Positions 2,964-40,108 of a stretch of DNA of 41,099 nt are shown here, one piece after another. Source of the stretch: a virus; IMG/VR virus record IMGVR_UViG_3300049188_000037, positions 1-41,099 of that record, one strand, 5' to 3'. The translations under genes were made by a program, and so were the position numbers. Under the pieces are notes generated by a model. It did not search any database, was not told the origin of the DNA, and saw nothing but the letters and a program-made list of their open reading frames with translations. Position 1 is the stretch's first letter, and each line of letters begins with the position of its first letter.

Positions 2964-2994
2964 GCCGCGTGATACGCCATCGCCGTATTAGTGC

Positions 2995-4251
2995 GTGGCC
3001 AGCAAGACCGCCCTTGACCTACTGTCGGAAGATTCGCGCAGGAGTGCGTCAGTTCGCGCTGCGTATTCTTCGAGCAATAGCGAAAACTGGGCGCAGATGT
3101 TCGGCGGAACCCCTTCCGCGTCTGGTATCAGTGTTACTCCAGAATCAGCGCTAAGGGCGTCGGCAGTTCATGCGTGCGTCGCGGTGATCGCGGGCACGAT
3201 GGCAACGCTTCCGCTGAACGTATATCGTCGGCGTAAGAGCGGCGGAAAGGATAAGGCAACGGAGCATCCGGCTTACTTTATCCTGCATGACGCGCCAAAC
3301 GACATGCTTACGTCGTGTGAATGGCGCGAGATGAAACAGGCGCATCTTTGCCTGCGTGGTAACGGTTTTTCACGAGTGTTGCGCGATGGGGCTGGCAGGC
3401 TGGCAGCGCTGATTCCTGAGCATCCGGATCGTGTTTCTATATTCCGCGACGGACTCAATGTAACGTACTCGATCCAGAAGTCTAACGGTGGCCAGGATGT
3501 TCTAAGGCAAGACGAGGTGCTACACCTGCGCGGCATGGGTCCGGACGGGCTCATTGGATATTCGCCGATCGGTCTTGCCCGAGAATCGATTGGCCTAGCG
3601 CTGGCGACTGAGCGGCATGGGGCGCAGCTCTTTGGTAATGGCGCCCGGCCTAGTGGATACATCGAAACACCGGGTACACTCACGCCGCAGCAGGTAGAAA
3701 AGCTGCGTGATGAGTGGCATAAACGCCACGGAGGCGAAAGCCAGAACGGGACTGCCATCCTGTACGGCGGTATGAAGTGGAGCGGGGTTACGATGAGTAG
3801 CGAAGACGCGCAGTTCCTCGAGACCCGCCAATATCAACTTTCAGACATTGCGCGAATTTTCCGCGTTCCGCCGCACCTCATCGGGGATCTGTCTAAGGCG
3901 ACATTTTCCAATATTGAACACCAGGCTATCGAGTTTGTAACTCACTGTATCCGCCCGTGGGCAGTGCGGTGGGAACAGCGGATGAATCAAGTGCTGCTCA
4001 CCCCGAAAGAGCGCGGTGAGTATTTTATAGAATACAATCTTGAGGGGCTGTTGCGTGGAGACCAGAAAACCCGATTTGAGGCGTATAATATCGGCCTCAA
4101 CGGCGGCATACTTTCGGTAAACGAGGTTCGCGACATTGAGAACCTAAACCCCATCGAGGGCGGGGATACGTACCGTCAGCCTATGAACATGAACAAGCTC
4201 GGTGATTTTTCAGCGAGCAATAACACCGCTGGAGGCGTGCCGAGTACATGA
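2995..4251 (+). CDS. Portal protein, HK97 family
   Basis: The 418-residue portal forms the dodecameric ring through which DNA enters and to which the tail is joined. Family landmarks include SALRASAVHACVAVIAGTMA near residues 45-65, HLRGMGPDGLIGYSPI in the middle, and YQLSDIARIFRVPPHLIGDL toward the C-terminus, all typical of HK97-type portals. The start is GTG; no upstream in-frame ATG is available. It overlaps the prohead protease by 4 nt. Confidence 0.95.
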   Translation: MASKTALDLLSEDSRRSASVRAAYSSSNSENWAQMFGGTPSASGISVTPESALRASAVHACVAVIAGTMATLPLNVYRRRKSGGKDKATEHPAYFILHDAPNDMLTSCEWREMKQAHLCLRGNGFSRVLRDGAGRLAALIPEHPDRVSIFRDGLNVTYSIQKSNGGQDVLRQDEVLHLRGMGPDGLIGYSPIGLARESIGLALATERHGAQLFGNGARPSGYIETPGTLTPQQVEKLRDEWHKRHGGESQNGTAILYGGMKWSGVTMSSEDAQFLETRQYQLSDIARIFRVPPHLIGDLSKATFSNIEHQAIEFVTHCIRPWAVRWEQRMNQVLLTPKERGEYFIEYNLEGLLRGDQKTRFEAYNIGLNGGILSVNEVRDIENLNPIEGGDTYRQPMNMNKLGDFSASNNTAGGVPST

Positions 4252-6087: not shown

Positions 6088-6528
6088 ATGCAACTTATCC
6101 ATAACTCGCGGATTGAGTCGGCAGTAACCCCGACTGCAGGCGCTTCGGGGACTACTGCAATCACAGGCTCGACGCATGACTTGGCTGGTGCTGCTGGTGC
6201 GCTGTTTATCGTGCGCATGGGAGCTATCACCGCTGGCGCGGCGACCTCTATCAAGGTGCAGCATGGGGCGGCATCGGACCTTTCCGACGCTACTGATGTT
6301 GCTGGCACTGCTCAGACGATTGCTGACGACGACGATGGAAAGATTTTCTACGTCGATTTCAGCCGTCCAACCAAGCGCTATGCGCGCTTAGTTGTGTCCC
6401 GGGCGACACAAGCCGCAACGGTAGCCGACGCGGTGGCGGTTGTGTATGGCGTGAATAACGCGCCTACGACTCAGCCTACCGGCGTTTCTGGCGAAACCCA
6501 TGTAGCGAAAGCATCGGGCACGGCCTAA
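6088..6528 (+). CDS. Virion protein, capsid decoration candidate
   Basis: A 146-residue protein directly after the capsid gene. I start it at ATG 6088 because GGAGG at 6074-6078 sits 9 nt upstream; an in-frame TTG at 6079 is less likely. The sequence is Ala/Thr/Gly-rich and predicted all-beta, with KVQHGAASDLSDATD and PTKRYARLVVSRAT segments that resemble small beta-sandwich proteins found after HK97-type capsids. A decoration or stabilising role is inferred from position and composition. Confidence 0.65.
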   Translation: MQLIHNSRIESAVTPTAGASGTTAITGSTHDLAGAAGALFIVRMGAITAGAATSIKVQHGAASDLSDATDVAGTAQTIADDDDGKIFYVDFSRPTKRYARLVVSRATQAATVADAVAVVYGVNNAPTTQPTGVSGETHVAKASGTA

Positions 6529-23745: not shown

Positions 23746-24111
23746 TTACTTTCGTCCGAGTGCTTTAAGGACTCGTTCCATCCATTCCTCGCCACTCAGG
23801 CCGCGGTAAGTATCAATCTCGATTGCGGAGTGGTACGCGGTGGCCTTTTCGGGGTCGGCGATTTCCTCGAGCAACGTGCGGAATGTGTCTGTGTTACTGT
23901 GCTGTGCCTCACTCACCGGCTCCGGGATAGGGCCAGCGAACTGACCAGACTCGTCTTCAATCCACGATTCACTGCCGTCTGGCCAGCGTGTCTTTAAGCG
24001 TCCGCACTCCATCCAAATATCATGTATTGTCGGTTCAGCTCCGACCACGTCGCGCATCCAATAGGCGCCCGGCACCGTCGGCCTCTCGCTCGTCCAAATA
24101 AGTTGATTCAT
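23746..24111 (-). CDS. Leftward protein with FAGPIPEP motif
   Basis: A 121-residue protein in opposite orientation to the tail genes. The first ~60 residues share the layout of the 520-729 protein: WTSERPTVPGAYW at the start and SGQFAGPIPEP. A further ~55 charged, helical residues follow. It lies beside attP in a two-gene leftward unit with its own terminator, so it is a candidate lysogenic-conversion gene, perhaps acting on the same target as its relative. Confidence 0.75.
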   Translation of the reverse strand: MNQLIWTSERPTVPGAYWMRDVVGAEPTIHDIWMECGRLKTRWPDGSESWIEDESGQFAGPIPEPVSEAQHSNTDTFRTLLEEIADPEKATAYHSAIEIDTYRGLSGEEWMERVLKALGRK

Positions 24112-24114
24112 GGG

Positions 24115-24480
24115 TTAGATCTTATCCGGCATCACCGCAGGATCGCCAAGCGTTCCGTCATACGGCAATCCGCGAAGTTCTGGGAAAACGAAAATGAAGT
24201 TGTGCTCAATACTGGCACGATACTCAAACGTCTCGGCCTTCGTGGTGAGTCCAAGCGCACGAGCAGCGCTGGCAAGCTCGAGATACTGGCTCTGCCGAAT
24301 GCGCAGGAACTGTTCGAAGGTTAGAGTGTAGGTCTTCGCAGCCGGCGTGACCGGCGGTGGCACTACAACGGCGGGAGGCACAAAGCGAATCACCGCAGCG
24401 CGGCCAACAGATTGATTTCCGGCGAAGAGGGACGAAGCGGCGACGGCCGCGAGGAGAAGCGTGAAAACGATGCGTTTCAT
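24115..24480 (-). CDS. Secreted protein, putative conversion gene
   Basis: A protein of about 121 residues if started at the ATG 24480-24478; a longer frame starts at 24513 but adds residues before the signal peptide. The start MKRIVFTLLLAAVAASSLFA is a Sec signal, followed by a Val/Pro-rich linker and a helical region 'TFEQFLRIRQSQYLELASAA'. No enzyme motif is visible. It is the gene nearest attP on this side, so in the prophage it is at one end, typical of moron genes. Confidence 0.72.
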   Translation of the reverse strand: MKRIVFTLLLAAVAASSLFAGNQSVGRAAVIRFVPPAVVVPPPVTPAAKTYTLTFEQFLRIRQSQYLELASAARALGLTTKAETFEYRASIEHNFIFVFPELRGLPYDGTLGDPAVMPDKI

Positions 24481-24533
24481 AACGAGACGTACCATATCCG
24501 AAAAATAAACCATTGCCTATCAACAATGAGAAG

Positions 24534-24595
24534 CTGACTCGAAATCAGGTAAACGGGAAACCGTTTCGTGGGTTCAAATCCCACCCTCTCCGCCA
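24534..24595 (+). other. attP core: 3' half of tRNA-Ser(CGA)
   Basis: The sequence matches the 3' half of a tRNA-Ser: anticodon loop CTCGAAA with anticodon CGA (24540-24542), a long variable arm (AACGG/CCGTT), T arm (GTGGG, TTCAAAT, CCCAC), the acceptor 3' strand CCTCTCC, discriminator G and CCA ending at 24595. The anticodon stem pairs only four positions; at the fifth, G33-G49 mismatch shows identity to the host begins at about 24534. No 5' half is present, so it is not a tRNA gene but an attachment core next to the integrase. Confidence 0.88.
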
Positions 24596-24601
24596 CTTAT
24601 G

Positions 24602-24628
24602 AAGCTCCGGTAATCCCGGAGCTTTTTT
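24602..24628 (+). terminator. Intrinsic terminator after tRNA half
   Basis: AAGCTCCGG (24602-24610) pairs with CCGGAGCTT (24616-24624) over a 5-nt loop, then T at 24625-24628 (part of a run of six T). It would end a tRNA transcript rebuilt by integration. Confidence 0.85.
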
Positions 24629-24708: not shown

Positions 24709-25698
24709 ATGCCACGAGTAGATTACGCGCTTTCGCCAGAGCAACGCATCGACGCCCGCGAGGCGTTTCGGCTGATCGAGGGCACGGGGCTCTCGCTGGT
24801 CGACGTGGTGAAGCGGGGGCTTGGTGAAAAACGCGCAAGTCATCGCGCCCTGACGAATGAAGTTGTTCGTCTGTTTCTGATCTCGAGACGAGAGGAGGGG
24901 TGCCGGCCCAAGACGATCGCCTTCTATGCGGACTTTTTGCGGCCGATCGCCGAGCAATTCGGGGATCGCGTGTTTGACACCATCACGCGCGCAGAGCTTG
25001 CGAAATGTATTCAGGGCGCGACGGACGGAGCCACCGCCAGGACATCGATTGCGCGTGCAAGCCGTGCCCTTTGGCGCTGGGCAATGGCTCGCCCTGAGCC
25101 AATGGCTGCCGTTGACGCATCGATGGGGCTTCGGTTCATCGTGGCGAAGAAGGAGGGGAGGAAGCCCGCCGTGTTGACCGTGGAGCAGTGCGGCGCGATC
25201 CTCGCCGGAGCTGGCCATTTTCGCGGCGCCCTTGCGCTAATGCTTGGAGCTGGCGTGCGGCCCGAAGAAATCCGGGGCCCTGGAAAAGAGCCGATGCGCT
25301 GGCGAGACATCGACATAACGCACAGCGCGATCACGGTGCGCGCCGAATGCTCCAAAACACGCAAAGAGCGAATCATTGAGAACCCGCCGCCGATGTTGTG
25401 GCAGTGGATCACGCCAGGAAATTCCGACGAACCGATCAGCCCAGCGCTCGCGCGGTCGATCATCGATGTGGCGAAAACTGCGGCGGGGCTGAAGAAGTGG
25501 ACGCAGGATGCCACCCGGCACACGTTCGCATCCTATGCGCTGGCGCTCACTCAGGATCCCGGGAAAGTGGCGCTCTGGCTCGGACACGAGGAGTCGCCAA
25601 AGATGCTTTTCAACCATTACCACCGTCCAGGGCTTCGTGCGCCAGCAGTTGCGTTTTTTAGCCTATGCAACGAGGGCGCAGTGTGCCCGTTCCGCTAG
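24709..25698 (+). CDS. int: Tyrosine integrase
   Basis: A 329-residue site-specific recombinase. The N-terminal SAM-like domain spans ~45-125. Catalytic residues are R184 (AGVRPEE), a Lys near 216 (CSKTRKER), R270 with H271 (DATRHTF; the usual His three residues before Arg is Asp here), H293 (LGHEE) and Y304 (FNHYHRPG). The nucleophile Tyr follows a His in a pattern I associate with verrucomicrobial integrases. It lies next to the tRNA-derived attP, and its 3' end overlaps the convergent lipoprotein gene by 4 nt. Confidence 0.95.
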   Translation: MPRVDYALSPEQRIDAREAFRLIEGTGLSLVDVVKRGLGEKRASHRALTNEVVRLFLISRREEGCRPKTIAFYADFLRPIAEQFGDRVFDTITRAELAKCIQGATDGATARTSIARASRALWRWAMARPEPMAAVDASMGLRFIVAKKEGRKPAVLTVEQCGAILAGAGHFRGALALMLGAGVRPEEIRGPGKEPMRWRDIDITHSAITVRAECSKTRKERIIENPPPMLWQWITPGNSDEPISPALARSIIDVAKTAAGLKKWTQDATRHTFASYALALTQDPGKVALWLGHEESPKMLFNHYHRPGLRAPAVAFFSLCNEGAVCPFR

Positions 25699-26069
25699 GG
25701 CGAAAAACCAGCCATCTGCCCCCATAAATTTGTCACATCGTGGTACAGTTGATCCTCCGGCGTGAACAAGAAAAAATAGGACTGAAAACCAGTATAGCCG
25801 CCGAAACTGTTTTTGGCGTTAACGCGAACTGGAATAATCCATCCGAAGTGAGATTTACCGCCGTAGATTAGACCATCTTTACACCAGCCCTTTTGTGGGT
25901 GGCCGAACTGGTAGCGCGCAGATTCGGGGTCTTTCAGTCGCTGTTGCATGAAGCCCGTAATGCGGGCCTCATAGTCGGAAGGCGGTGTGCCGTAGTTAGC
26001 TTTCTGCATTTGCTCGTGGGTCACGCAGCTGCAGAGCAGTAGGAATAGGATAGGGAAGAAAGCTTTCAC
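25695..26069 (-). CDS. Lipoprotein, putative lysogenic-conversion gene
   Basis: A 124-residue lipoprotein starting at GTG with MKAFFPILFLLLCSC, where the lipobox ends at Cys15. The mature part has YEARITGFMQQRLKDPESARYQF and VRVNAKNSFGGYTGFQSY patterns that resemble a family of bacterial envelope lipoproteins. A good sigma70-type promoter lies upstream. It converges on the integrase. Host-surface modification or superinfection exclusion is a reasonable guess. Confidence 0.8.
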   Translation of the reverse strand: MKAFFPILFLLLCSCVTHEQMQKANYGTPPSDYEARITGFMQQRLKDPESARYQFGHPQKGWCKDGLIYGGKSHFGWIIPVRVNAKNSFGGYTGFQSYFFLFTPEDQLYHDVTNLWGQMAGFSP

Positions 26070-26244: not shown

Positions 26245-26460
26245 ATGAAGACAAAGCGAATCCCGAACGCAGAACTGCGAGTTATCTCGCTTGCGCAGCA
26301 TCCGATTTCCGCCAATGCGAAAATCGTTCACCTCGGCCGACCACGAAAACCTTGCGCCTGGACCTCACCAGACTCTGCAAAGCGCGACCACGAGCACGCT
26401 GAGATTATTCGGCTCAGTGCTTTTTTGAGGGCGGGGGAGCCAGGCGGATCGGCTGCGTAA
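26245..26460 (+). CDS. Doubtful small ORF
   Basis: A 71-codon frame, basic, with no recognised domain. An apparent rightward terminator (26393-26426) lies inside it, and its 3' end runs 47 nt into the convergent RHH gene. It may be a chance frame in a transcribed non-coding region. Confidence 0.3.
   Translation: MKTKRIPNAELRVISLAQHPISANAKIVHLGRPRKPCAWTSPDSAKRDHEHAEIIRLSAFLRAGEPGGSAA
26393..26426 (+). terminator. Intrinsic terminator, rightward
   Basis: AGCAC-GC-TGAG (26393-26403) pairs with CTCA-GTGCT (26413-26421) with a 2-nt bulge and a 9-nt loop, then a T run (26422-26426). It would end a rightward RNA starting somewhere after 26120. Confidence 0.6.
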
Positions 26461-26632
26461 CTTCACCATGCTCGCTTACGTGCCGCGCAAGCGCTGCTGC
26501 TAGTTGGCGCAGCGTTTCTGACGGCTGAATCTTCACCTTTTCACACGCGTCATAGAACTCCATCTTTTCATCGGGAGTTACGTACGAGCTTAGCTTTTCG
26601 GAGCGAGTGACCTGTAGGCGTGGCCGGGCCAT
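26414..26632 (-). CDS. Ribbon-helix-helix protein
   Basis: A 72-residue protein with the RHH outline: short N-terminal strand (KLSSYVTPDEKM), helix (EFYDACEKVKIQP) and second helix (SETLRQLAAALARHV). The basic start MARPRLQVTRSEK suits DNA binding. It lies downstream of another leftward RHH gene, so the region holds several Arc/CopG-like regulators. A promoter could not be identified with confidence. Confidence 0.78.
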   Translation of the reverse strand: MARPRLQVTRSEKLSSYVTPDEKMEFYDACEKVKIQPSETLRQLAAALARHVSEHGEVTQPIRLAPPPSKKH

Positions 26633-26753
26633 TAGCCGCAGTCAACAGCTTGCCAATCAACCAGTGCAACACCGGACGGCGGAGTTAATTAGAGTTATTC
26701 GGTCCTATAAACTCCTGCAAATGTGCCGAAACTAATTTCAGCATGAGTAGATC

Positions 26754-26796
26754 AAAAAAACAAAAACCGCAGTCGCCGGAATTCCGGCAGCTGCGG
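26754..26796 (-). terminator. Intrinsic terminator of leftward RHH gene
   Basis: Nested hairpin: CCGCAG (26767-26772) pairs with CTGCGG (26791-26796) and encloses the palindrome CCGGAATTCCGG. The plus-strand A-rich tract at 26754-26766 gives T-rich sequence after the hairpin on the minus strand. It follows the gene at 26846-27070. Confidence 0.8.
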
Positions 26797-26845
26797 CAGG
26801 CGATAGTGAGGGCTAACTCTGTTTTTGAACTCCGGGTAGCGGCGT

Positions 26846-27070
26846 TCAAAGCGCTTTATTGGGCGGCTGCGCCAGCTTCTCGGCGACGTAAAGTTGTAGC
26901 GCTTTCCGAATCAGGGCAGAGAGTCGGCCCTTCGGCGCGACCGTGCTAAACTCAGCCTCAGCTCGGGCACGGATAGCCTCATCCTCGATATCAGACACCT
27001 GGAAGGTTATCCGTTTACCCGTGCGGATCGGCTCGTTCTTTCTAGCGCTCTTTTTCATGTCGTGTGTCAT
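26846..27070 (-). CDS. Ribbon-helix-helix regulator, leftward arm of switch
   Basis: A 74-residue RHH protein: strand RITFQVSDIEDEA, helix RARAEAEFSTVAP, helix GRLSALIRKALQLYVAEKLA, and a basic N-terminus (KKSARKNEPIRTGKR) suited to DNA contact. Its start codon (27070) lies within GTGT-CAT-ACAC and beside TGTCTGACA, so it probably regulates its own synthesis. It is divergent from the RHH gene at 27191. No CI-type repressor is seen, so it is the best repressor candidate. Confidence 0.8.
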   Translation of the reverse strand: MTHDMKKSARKNEPIRTGKRITFQVSDIEDEAIRARAEAEFSTVAPKGRLSALIRKALQLYVAEKLAQPPNKAL

Positions 27071-27074
27071 ACAC
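27064..27074. promoter_or_regulatory. Operator-like palindrome at RHH start
   Basis: GTGT-CAT-ACAC; the CAT is the reverse complement of the leftward gene's start codon. Together with TGTCTGACA (27075-27083) it forms one end of the divergent control region. Confidence 0.6.
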
Positions 27075-27190
27075 TGTCTGACACATTGCTTGCAAGTTCA
27101 TAGGTAAGTCGAAAGTTCCCTAAACAAAACTAGGGGAATCCCCGCTTTTTTGCTTGCGTGTGTCTGACACACGACACTAGGGTCCGACAC
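27071..27190. promoter_or_regulatory. Divergent control region of RHH switch
   Basis: The 120-bp gap between the two divergent RHH genes holds repeated sites with GTC-n-GAC cores: TGTCTGACA (27075-27083), an exact 17-bp palindrome (27157-27173) and GTCCGAC (27182-27188). The palindrome GGGGAATCCCC (27133-27143) and CTTGCAAG (27089-27096) are also present. For the rightward gene TTGCTT (27150-27155) and GACACT (27173-27178) could be weak promoter boxes flanking the long palindrome. No definite leftward promoter was assigned. Confidence 0.7.
27157..27173. promoter_or_regulatory. Perfect 17-bp operator palindrome
   Basis: CGTGTGTC-T-GACACACG has two perfect 8-bp arms and a one-base centre. It lies about 20 nt before the rightward RHH gene, between the candidate promoter boxes, where a bound repressor would block transcription. 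Confidence 0.75.
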
Positions 27191-27388
27191 ATGCCACGAA
27201 TTACTTTCCGTCCAGATGCGGAGTGTGAGGCGATTATCGAAAAGGCGAAAGTGGTCACCGGTTTAAACGACAGCGAACTGTGCCGCGTAGCCATCGTCGA
27301 GTACGTAGCCAAGCAGTCCCCTGATAAAATCCAACGCGCGCACAATGCGCACCGTGTTCGGCTCATGAAGCGAAAGGCCGCAGCGTGA
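27191..27388 (+). CDS. Ribbon-helix-helix regulator, rightward arm of switch
   Basis: A 65-residue RHH protein: strand PRITFRPDAE, helix CEAIIEKAKVVTG, helix NDSELCRVAIVEYVAKQ, then a basic tail. I start it at ATG 27191, right after the operator half-site; a GTG at 27158 would translate the palindrome. It is the first gene of the rightward early operon and overlaps the next gene as GTGA. By position it may play the Cro-like part. Confidence 0.8.
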   Translation: MPRITFRPDAECEAIIEKAKVVTGLNDSELCRVAIVEYVAKQSPDKIQRAHNAHRVRLMKRKAAA

Positions 27389-27528
27389 GCCCCGAAGTTA
27401 AGCACCCGCTGATCTGCATCTGCTTTTGGGCCGTGGTAGCGCTGATCGCGGGCACCTGGGCGCTCGCCACCGAGCACCGCCTGAAGCGGAAGCTCGGTAA
27501 AGACTACGAGGGGCCTCTCAATGACTGA
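27385..27528 (+). CDS. Tiny single-pass membrane protein
   Basis: A 47-residue protein starting at a GTG that overlaps the preceding stop, and ending in an overlap with the next start. A hydrophobic segment (about residues 8-26, LICICFWAVVALIAGTWAL) is followed by a basic, then acidic, tail. Function unknown. Confidence 0.65.
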   Translation: MSPEVKHPLICICFWAVVALIAGTWALATEHRLKRKLGKDYEGPLND

Positions 27529-27706
27529 GCAAGACACCATCCTCACGAAGGCCGAGGGCATGGCTCTTGCGAAAAAATCTACGCCCCTAGCTTTCGACAA
27601 GTGGCGGCGTAAATGGGGTGTTCGCGGACGCGGACGCTACTCCAAGCATGCGATAGAGCACGCGATGCACCGCGAGGCCACCGCACTTCGGCGCAAGATC
27701 ATCTAA
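27521..27706 (+). CDS. Small DNA-binding protein, excisionase candidate
   Basis: A 61-residue basic protein with TKAEGMALAKKSTPLAFDKW followed by RKWGVRGRGRYSKHAIEHAM, a MerR/excisionase-like helix-turn-helix outline. Small size and position early in the rightward operon suit a Xis-type directionality factor, although it is 2 kb from int. The identification is tentative. Confidence 0.6.
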   Translation: MTEQDTILTKAEGMALAKKSTPLAFDKWRRKWGVRGRGRYSKHAIEHAMHREATALRRKII

Positions 27707-29632: not shown

Positions 29633-29742
29633 CCGCCCTCGACCGCCTAATCATCGCCGCGAACGCCGCACAGCTCGCGGGCTTCAACGAAACCGCCGCC
29701 GCTCTGGTAGCGCTGGCGAATGGAATGAAAGGAAATTTGTGA
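29629..29742 (+). CDS. Tiny Ala-rich helical protein
   Basis: A 37-residue protein with a good SD (AGAGGAG) before its ATG. It overlaps both neighbours by 4 nt, as ATGA and GTGA. The product is an Ala-rich amphipathic helix. The coupled layout suggests it is really translated. Confidence 0.6.
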   Translation: MTALDRLIIAANAAQLAGFNETAAALVALANGMKGNL

Positions 29743-30458
29743 GTAGAGAACTTTCAACTACACAATCAAGCGCCCCGGCGTTGGTTCAGCTCATGGCTCA
29801 GGCTATGGGCGACGGCAAGGGGCCTGAGTATCTGCGGGAGCTGCTGGCAGTTCGCCGCGAGTGGGAGGCCGACGAAGCACGTAAGGCTTTCAATCTGGCG
29901 GTTGCTGATTTCCAGCGCCGCGCCCCCATCGTCGAGAAGGGAGACAAAGCGTACGATAAAGACTACGCGCGCCTTGACCGCATCTGGCGCACGATCCGCC
30001 CGCTGGTGACAGAGCTTGGCCTGTCAATCACGTGGCAAACGTGCGAACTCCGCGACGGCCTGTGCCATGTCGAGGGACAGCTGCGCCACCGCGACGGGCA
30101 CGGCGAACGCATCGTGCAGGACATTCCGGTGCCTGAGCTGCTCAAGGGCCAGAACAAGGCGCAGCAGATGGGCAGCGCGACTACCTACGCTAAACGGTAC
30201 GCGCTCTGCGGCGCGCTCGGCATCGTGACTGGCGACGATGACGACGGCCATAAAGCCGGTTCCGAGTTTGTCACGTACGAGCAGGCGCAGGAGCTGACTG
30301 CGATGATCGACGCTTGCCGCGGTATCAACGGTTTCAACGAAACCGCGTTCTGGGGCTGGGTCGGCGTTGCGAGTAAGGTTGCGGCTGAGATCCCGGCGAC
30401 GCGCTACGCGGAAGTGCGGGCGATGCTGCAGAAGAAACTGAAGGGAGTTGTATCATGA
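29739..30458 (+). CDS. erf: ERF-family single-strand annealing protein
   Basis: A 239-residue recombination protein that should anneal complementary DNA strands. The ERF signature GSATTYAKRYALCGALGIVT (145-164) followed by GDDDDG (165-170) is unmistakable. It pairs with the exonuclease at 30649 in a Red-like module that supports replication, concatemer formation and circularisation. GTG start overlaps the preceding stop. Confidence 0.93.
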   Translation: MSRELSTTQSSAPALVQLMAQAMGDGKGPEYLRELLAVRREWEADEARKAFNLAVADFQRRAPIVEKGDKAYDKDYARLDRIWRTIRPLVTELGLSITWQTCELRDGLCHVEGQLRHRDGHGERIVQDIPVPELLKGQNKAQQMGSATTYAKRYALCGALGIVTGDDDDGHKAGSEFVTYEQAQELTAMIDACRGINGFNETAFWGWVGVASKVAAEIPATRYAEVRAMLQKKLKGVVS

Positions 30459-30652
30459 AGGGCGTAGCTTTGGGTATATTTGTTACATGCTGCTGCTTTT
30501 GGGTTTTTTGGCTGGCGGTTTATCCAAGAGGCGTCTGGGAGCTTCTCACGTGGCGCGATTTCCGGGATTGGAATAGAGAGCAGGCTGCCGCGTCTGCGAT
30601 GCTGTGGCTTTATGCCGTTATTACGGTTGCCACAGGAGGTATGCTTCTATGA
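30455..30652 (+). CDS. Two-helix membrane protein
   Basis: A 65-residue protein with hydrophobic segments at about 4-24 and 47-65, overlapping the ERF and exonuclease genes by 4 nt each. It is oddly inserted between recombination partners. Function unknown. Confidence 0.65.
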   Translation: MKGVALGIFVTCCCFWVFWLAVYPRGVWELLTWRDFRDWNREQAAASAMLWLYAVITVATGGMLL

Positions 30653-31296
30653 ACGCGTTAAAGTGCCAGCAGCGCTCGGAGGCGTGGTATGAGGCGCGTC
30701 GCGGACTGCCGACCTGTAGTCGATTCGACAAGATCCTCACGGCAGCCAAGGGCGAGCCAAGCAAGTCGCAGGAAACGCTCATCAATGAGCTTATCGCGGA
30801 ATCCATCCTGCCGCCTGAGCAAGGTCTAGTCCGCCCGCAGCTCACCAGCGCCGACATTGAGCACGGCATGATCCTCGAGGCCGAGGCACGCTGCTGCTAC
30901 GAGCTGGAGTTCGCCAGCGAGCCGGTGCGTGAAGTCGGCTTTGTGCTGGCAGAGTGCGGGCTGTACGGCGGCTCACCTGACGCGCTTGTCGGTGAGGCTG
31001 GCGGCGTGGAAATCAAATGCCCGCGAGCTGATACACACATCGGTTACGTGCGCGCGAACGTATTGCCGGTTGAATACAAGTGCCAGGTGCACGGCTACAT
31101 GGTCGTCACTGGTCGCGACTGGTGGGACTTCTTCAGTTACTATCGCGGCTTTCCGTTGCTTCGCCTGCGCGTGGAGCGGGACGCGTTCACCGCAAAGCTC
31201 GCCGCTGAGCTGCTCAACTTCTGCGCCAAGTATGACAAAGCGCGCAAGGCTTTCGGCCTGCCGACGCTCGCCGAAAAAGCAAAGGGGGCCGCATGA
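30649..31296 (+). CDS. YqaJ-type (lambda exonuclease-like) recombinase nuclease
   Basis: A 215-residue 5'-3' exonuclease candidate. I start it at ATG 30649 overlapping the previous stop. Motifs: E71 (DIEHG), D111 (GSPDALVG), E121-I-K123 (VEIKCP) and Q146 (CQVHGY), the PD-(D/E)XK set of YqaJ nucleases. It works with the ERF protein. Confidence 0.9.
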   Translation: MNALKCQQRSEAWYEARRGLPTCSRFDKILTAAKGEPSKSQETLINELIAESILPPEQGLVRPQLTSADIEHGMILEAEARCCYELEFASEPVREVGFVLAECGLYGGSPDALVGEAGGVEIKCPRADTHIGYVRANVLPVEYKCQVHGYMVVTGRDWWDFFSYYRGFPLLRLRVERDAFTAKLAAELLNFCAKYDKARKAFGLPTLAEKAKGAA

Positions 31297-39871: not shown

Positions 39872-40108
39872 ATGCCACGTGTAGCCATCACCGCAGAACT
39901 GTTGGTCTGTATTCGAGAGCTGAAGAAGGTTGGGCTGACCAACTATGCAATCGCCCAGCTCCTACACATCGATGACCACACGATTGCGCGCAATCTGCGA
40001 GGTGAACGAAAGACGTTAGTGCCTGCATCACCGGAAGCTGTTGTGAAAGAGCTTCGAAGAGTAGCTGCGCAAATTGAGCAGACCAACGTCTTGCCAAACC
40101 AGCCGTAG
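39872..40108 (+). CDS. Small HTH protein
   Basis: A 78-residue protein with a helix-turn-helix segment (GLTNYAIAQLLHIDDHTIAR, about residues 20-39) and basic flanks. It could regulate late genes or assist replication. It follows the initiator by 3 nt. Confidence 0.7.
   Translation: MPRVAITAELLVCIRELKKVGLTNYAIAQLLHIDDHTIARNLRGERKTLVPASPEAVVKELRRVAAQIEQTNVLPNQP

Follow-up and report, generated by a model that had tools for sequence, protein, structure and literature searches.

A divergent pair of probable ribbon-helix-helix genes as candidate switch between lysis and lysogeny in a temperate phage integrating at tRNA-Ser

The control region beside the integrase gene of the phage analysed here raises the question of how the decision between lysis and lysogeny might be taken where no repressor of the CI type is detectable. 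In phage lambda, the divergent regulators CI and Cro, with operator clusters at both promoters, lie beside int and ahead of the early recombination and replication genes, and the repressor combines an HTH fold with S24 self-cleavage. To our knowledge, nearly all well-studied tailed-phage switches use HTH repressors. For the present locus, an initial annotation had postulated an Arc/Mnt-like circuit of three ribbon-helix-helix (RHH) genes in place of CI/Cro, and had suggested structure predictions of their products and a search for the same cassette near int in relatives. Based on the data presented below, the primary switch of this phage is probably a divergent pair of RHH regulators of a CI/Cro-like (Mnt/Arc-like) kind.

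The sequence under study, a virus record from IMG/VR that comprises 41,099 bp and is referred to as the window, reads from its gene order as a nearly complete tailed phage. Genes for terminase, portal, protease, capsid, tape measure and tail fibre are located in the part up to 21967. The tail genes are followed by the integrase gene at 24709, the switch region and the ERF and YqaJ recombination genes, and further to the right by an HNH gene, a C5 methylase gene, an O-like replication gene, the gene of a small HTH protein and the HNH gene of the right end. No end repeats were found in the 41,099 bp. The record opens with a run of 13 G (within positions 1–30), which is probably a terminal artefact of assembly or sequencing. 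The features relevant for the argument are the following:

24530–24595, plus strand: attP core, identified from the sequence as the 3′ part of a tRNA-Ser(CGA) from the anticodon stem to CCGCCA
24709–25698, plus strand: tyrosine integrase
26414–26632, minus strand: gene A, probable RHH (RelB/DinJ-like) protein, accessory
26846–27070, minus strand: gene B, candidate repressor of the prophage, its product being a probable RHH protein whose loop is long and MetJ-like
27064–27084, no strand: predicted left operator pair consisting of GTGTCATACAC and CTGTCTGACAC, with a distance of 10 bp between centres and an overlap with the start (ATG) of B
27157–27190, no strand: predicted right operator pair, CGTGTGTCTGACACACG (27157–27173) and GGGTCCGACAC (27180–27190), with a distance of 20 bp between centres, extending up to the ATG of C
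27191–27388, plus strand: gene C, candidate antagonist of B in the manner of Cro/Arc, its product being a probable RHH protein
27385–27528, plus strand: small ORF whose coordinates overlap C at its end and the following gene at its start (coupled operon)
27521–27706, plus strand: small basic protein, perhaps excisionase- or MerR-like
29739–31296, plus strand: recombination genes ERF (PF04404) and YqaJ (PF09588), both over cut-off, which belong to the rightward early operon and follow C downstream

The integrase (PF00589 over cut-off; phrog_1 with E 4e-19) is directly preceded by the 66-bp attP core with its terminal CCGCCA, behind which a terminator-like hairpin with a T run is found at about 24602–24628. 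The core matches the tRNA-Ser 3′ ends of verrucomicrobial genomes by up to 89%, and ARAGORN assigns the top-matching genomic tRNAs as tRNA-Ser(CGA). An intact tRNA-Ser(CGA) directly adjoins an integrase of the same family in the bacterial genome L072. As the 3′ end of this tRNA lies ahead of int, the phage is, judged from its sequence, temperate and tRNA-Ser-integrating. Its integrase has relatives in Verrucomicrobia/Verrucomicrobiota and Akkermansia phages, so that the host probably belongs to the phylum Verrucomicrobiota. The integrase gene is flanked by leftward small genes (23746–24513 and 25695–26069, both on the minus strand), two of them with signal-peptide or lipoprotein-like N-termini; these are possible lysogenic conversion genes.

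Within the switch region, the leftward gene B and the rightward gene C diverge from each other, with the operator sites between them and the integrase gene nearby. The three ORFs of the initial annotation, 26414–26632 and 26846–27070 on the minus and 27191–27388 on the plus strand, are present in the arrangement it described, and so are the palindromes of the GTGTC/GACAC type that it had placed at the start of the leftward gene and ahead of that of the rightward one. Gene B starts at 27070 or, alternatively, at an inner ATG at 27058. Gene C heads the rightward early operon and has an extra upstream GTG at 27158.

Between the two genes lies the perfect 17-bp palindrome at 27157–27173, from which the consensus GTGTCnGACAC was taken for scoring all 11-mers of the window. 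A score of at least 9/10 is reached at just five places in the 41,099 bp, four of which are located at 27064, 27074, 27160 and 27180. Dinucleotide shuffles contain on average 1.08 such sites, and four sites within 130 bp occurred in none of 300 shuffles; as the consensus derives from one of the sites, the independent evidence consists of the other three. The fifth site, at 24970 inside int, is within the chance expectation given by the shuffles and was discarded. The candidate operators thus are four 11-bp near-palindromes in helical spacing, one pair for each divergent start. An exact copy of the 17-bp operator was detected once among the viral contigs, within a coding gene of L018, a contig of 452 kb, and is taken as a chance match. 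A sigma-70 promoter scan of the switch region yielded nothing above chance, so that the promoters are placed by inference only, perhaps at the promoter-like hexamers TTGCTT and TTGCAA just outside the two operator pairs. Midway between the pairs, a palindrome GGGGAATCCCC followed by a T run (27130–27152) was noticed, possibly a short terminator or another binding site.

The assignment of the three proteins to the RHH type, as claimed initially, is in keeping with several weak matches, although none of them reached the cut-off of a curated RHH family in the Pfam and PHROG searches. Since RHH families are short and diverse, missed cut-offs argue only weakly against this fold. Protein A matches RelB with 17.1 bits compared to a cut-off of 22.4 (E 0.005), and its top match in the PDB is DinJ (E 0.06). 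Protein B contains the only RHH_1 matches of the whole window, two sub-threshold half-matches (7.1 and 5.1 bits) that are colinear and separated by a longer loop; its top PDB match is NikA (E 0.59). Protein C has no RHH match in Pfam, matches a CopG-like PHROG with E 0.023 and finds its best counterpart among 388 verrucomicrobial genomes in L031, a weak match in view of the number of genomes searched. The L031 protein itself matches RHH_1 at E 9e-4, just under the family cut-off, and aligns with C in register over the whole domain (z 13.3, for a match picked from a large search). A small RHH profile built from eight protein sequences of cellular and plasmid origin ranks C, B and A at positions 1, 6 and 8 among the 591 ORFs of the window; these ranks, like those from a second profile that was used in a scan of integrase loci and includes proteins of the viral relatives described below, count as supporting evidence only. 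Structure prediction gave a divided answer. The AlphaFold (AF2) monomer model of C (pLDDT 73) has helices at residues 8–19 and 27–42 after an extended N-terminus, positioned as in an RHH monomer; however, Foldseek and VIA searches with it returned no RHH structure among the matches listed, and B and A, modelled as one chain with stops read as Gly, reached a pLDDT of 38. B and C are weakly related to each other (z 3.4) and share the motif RITF in their N-terminal strands (KRITFQV and PRITFRP). In RHH proteins, the N-terminal strands touch the DNA bases. Taken together, these matches suggest that B and C likely adopt the RHH fold.

The support that weighs most comes from comparison with two viral contigs. 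L038, found by a scan with the integrase alignment, encodes an integrase 38% identical to that of the window and carries before int a remnant (1300–1364) of the same attP tRNA-Ser. It contains a leftward RHH gene at 2663–2923 (counted from an inner ATG) and a divergent rightward one at 2993–3175, which are paralogs (BLASTP E 2e-9). The next gene (3304–3576) is the syntenic homolog of 27521–27706 in the window with z 9 against shuffles, a homology missed by BLASTP alone, and is followed by genes for RecT and a PDDEXK nuclease. L071, found by a scan with the left protein of L038, has orthologs of both RHH proteins in the same divergent layout (z 11.8 and 27). The proteins of both contigs give weak RHH-type matches (CcdA, RHH_1, DUF6364), and gene B corresponds in position to their leftward RHH gene. 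A search of the PDB with their family profile produced nothing useful, and hhalign indicated no relation between this profile and A, B or C of the window. The candidate operators of L038 and L071 are copies of ATGCGCAT, mostly 12 bp apart and near both starts. In an alignment of the two intergenic regions, the invariant positions are mainly those of the ATGCGCAT sites, and the cluster of L071 was matched by none of 500 shuffles. The N-terminal strands differ as well, KRITFQV/PRITFRP being associated with GTGTC sites in the window and TNLTL/TNLYL/TNIYL with ATGCGCAT in L038/L071. That recognition strand and operator differ together between the phage types is suggestive, with two operator types compared. 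As L038 has no counterpart of gene A between int and the RHH pair, the conserved core consists of the divergent genes B and C, and gene A, outside it, is best seen as accessory. The cassette suggested initially was hence found near int in its divergent part, in L038 without gene A, but not at the more distant loci scanned: around 20 more distant verrucomicrobial integrases no RHH gene was present near int, and the cassette is therefore not general to this integrase family.

Since this layout recurs in L038 and L071, there combined with operators of another sequence, the locus has the appearance of a lambda-style switch in a different fold. In the prophage, B would be expressed leftward and its dimers would lie side by side on the tandem 11-bp sites. 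Bound to the right pair, B would shut the rightward early promoter ahead of C and thereby the recombination, methylase and replication genes, while binding to the left pair would limit expression of its own gene. C, as the first early product, would bind the same sites via a similar β-strand and shut B off, leading to lysis. DNA binding by both regulators at the same operators is proposed from the shared RITF strand and the shared site consensus, and each protein may have its own site preference. With no S24 domain present, induction would need a route other than self-cleavage. The Arc/Mnt-like circuit of the initial annotation is thus supported in its central idea by the layout in L038/L071, the helically spaced sites and the joint difference of strand and operator, whereas its third component, gene A, lies outside the core and the RHH fold of B and C is no more than likely.

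Closest in its logic among known systems is the immI region of Salmonella phage P22 with its two related RHH repressors, where Mnt and Arc act in the lysogenic and the lytic state, respectively, and each affects the expression of the other (PMC7549136, PMC11016777). The immI region lies within the late operon (PMC8022706) and controls the antirepressor gene ant, ranking below the HTH switch c2/cro. Two probable RHH genes with candidate operators at both starts are present in the window as well as in L038 and L071; the two are paralogous in L038, the relationship of B and C in the window being weak. It could be argued that the pair forms a secondary immunity module that tunes another regulator, the true repressor being an unrecognised protein elsewhere or encoded by a gene missing from the record. 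Such a reading, to which we concede a minor but real chance, is encouraged by the precedent of Mnt and Arc, secondary to immC (PMC11016777), by the small HTH protein at 39872–40108 (HTH_38 with E 1e-4) as a candidate within the window and by the XRE gene beside int in L071. However, the pair of the window is located beside int and heads the early operon, in contrast to the late-operon position in P22 (PMC8022706), and no antirepressor family was recognised among the tested genes adjoining or downstream of C. Moreover, six-frame searches of the window with HTH_3 (PF01381) and Peptidase_S24 (PF00717) gave no match, in line with the initial statement that no CI/HTH-S24-type repressor is visible. 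This also marks the difference from lambda, with which the window otherwise shares the divergent pair, the site clusters at both starts, the adjacent int and the early genes thereafter. The protein at 39872–40108 is encoded on the lytic (plus) strand after the O-like replication gene, an unexpected place for a prophage repressor; this position rather suggests a late-gene regulator or a packaging-related protein. A switch of "only RHH" proteins would therefore hold for the window within the scope of the six-frame HTH_3/S24 searches, while the relative L071 has, besides its divergent RHH pair, a borderline XRE-type HTH gene directly downstream of int (3092–3712, minus strand), which could be a second regulator.

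The antitoxin likeness of the proteins has also to be considered. For A as well as for the RHH proteins of L038/L071, the nearest weak matches are RHH antitoxins (CcdA, RelB/DinJ and VapB-like), and members of the L038/L071 family occur in bacterial chromosomes, one beside a gene read as a PIN-type toxin. If A, B and C were antitoxins or a centromere-binding pair, autoregulation would explain the palindromes without any role in lysogeny. We regard this as rather improbable, since no toxin or partition ATPase family was matched beside A, B and C, no toxin gene was recognised beside the pairs of the other phages, the operators cover both divergent starts including that of the early operon, and an integrating phage has no need of partition. 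Very improbable, finally, is an error at the level of the fold, with A, B and C being other small DNA-binding or unrelated proteins. The missed cut-offs and the structure comparison of C would fit such an error, yet it is difficult to reconcile with the in-register alignment of C with the RHH_1-type protein of L031, the ranks of the three genes in the profile scan and the RHH-type matches of the syntenic proteins in L038 and L071. The divergent RHH pair as primary switch accordingly remains the reading we prefer; counting against it are the missed cut-offs, the divided outcome of structure prediction, the hhalign result, the XRE-type gene of L071, the RHH-free loci around more distant integrases, the promoter scan and the RHH pairs of bacterial chromosomes described below.

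An RHH protein as main lysogeny regulator is not without precedent. F55 of the archaeal fusellovirus (spindle virus) SSV1 binds multiple 11-nt sites in early promoters and in its own promoter, and is proposed to be released from the DNA through RadA (PMC9608457). It differs from the proposed switch as a single RHH protein outside any divergent pair, with a non-palindromic repeat as its site. A further Arc-type prophage protein is YosL of SP-beta (PMC10516654). No tailed phage whose primary switch is a divergent RHH pair was described in the literature searched, from which most subscription papers are absent, so that novelty does not follow from this result. If correct, a switch of RHH proteins only would mean that a fold other than HTH can serve the logic of CI and Cro. 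Such a switch would also prompt the question by what means the prophage detects damage when its repressor is not self-cleaving, and would provide a searchable signature (divergent tiny RHH genes, tandem operators, adjoining int) for temperate phages of a phylum whose phages are poorly known. In a more general form, which we rate as evenly balanced, some tailed phages of Verrucomicrobiota would possess a primary switch whose repressor and opponent are both RHH proteins, probably recruited from antitoxin-like genes, with operator and strand changing together into separate immunity groups and no self-cleaving CI.

Single-sequence patterns of A, B, C, integrase and terminase detected no close relatives in viral contigs, tblastn of B, C and three of the four RHH proteins of L038/L071 found none in 50,697 phage records, and matches of B in the 388 verrucomicrobial genomes were spurious only. 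A search with the L038/L071 family led to chromosomal loci of bacteria at which RHH genes form divergent pairs distant from int, so that the module also exists outside phages, and antitoxin-like genes may be the ancestors of the phage pair. Such chromosomal relatives of the phage module, with tiny divergent genes, were recorded in Verrucomicrobiota at 6257–7083 of L104, 5754–6218 of L109 and 5865–6478 of L105, each with no int nearby. Two of these three pairs adjoin a queD-like gene, and a single RHH gene in another place adjoins the PIN-type toxin gene mentioned above, both names being read from sequence. In L004 (1226–1963, minus strand), an in-frame fusion joins the C-terminal half of a phage RHH gene to sequence resembling a terminase, which is either an assembly error or a prophage remnant.
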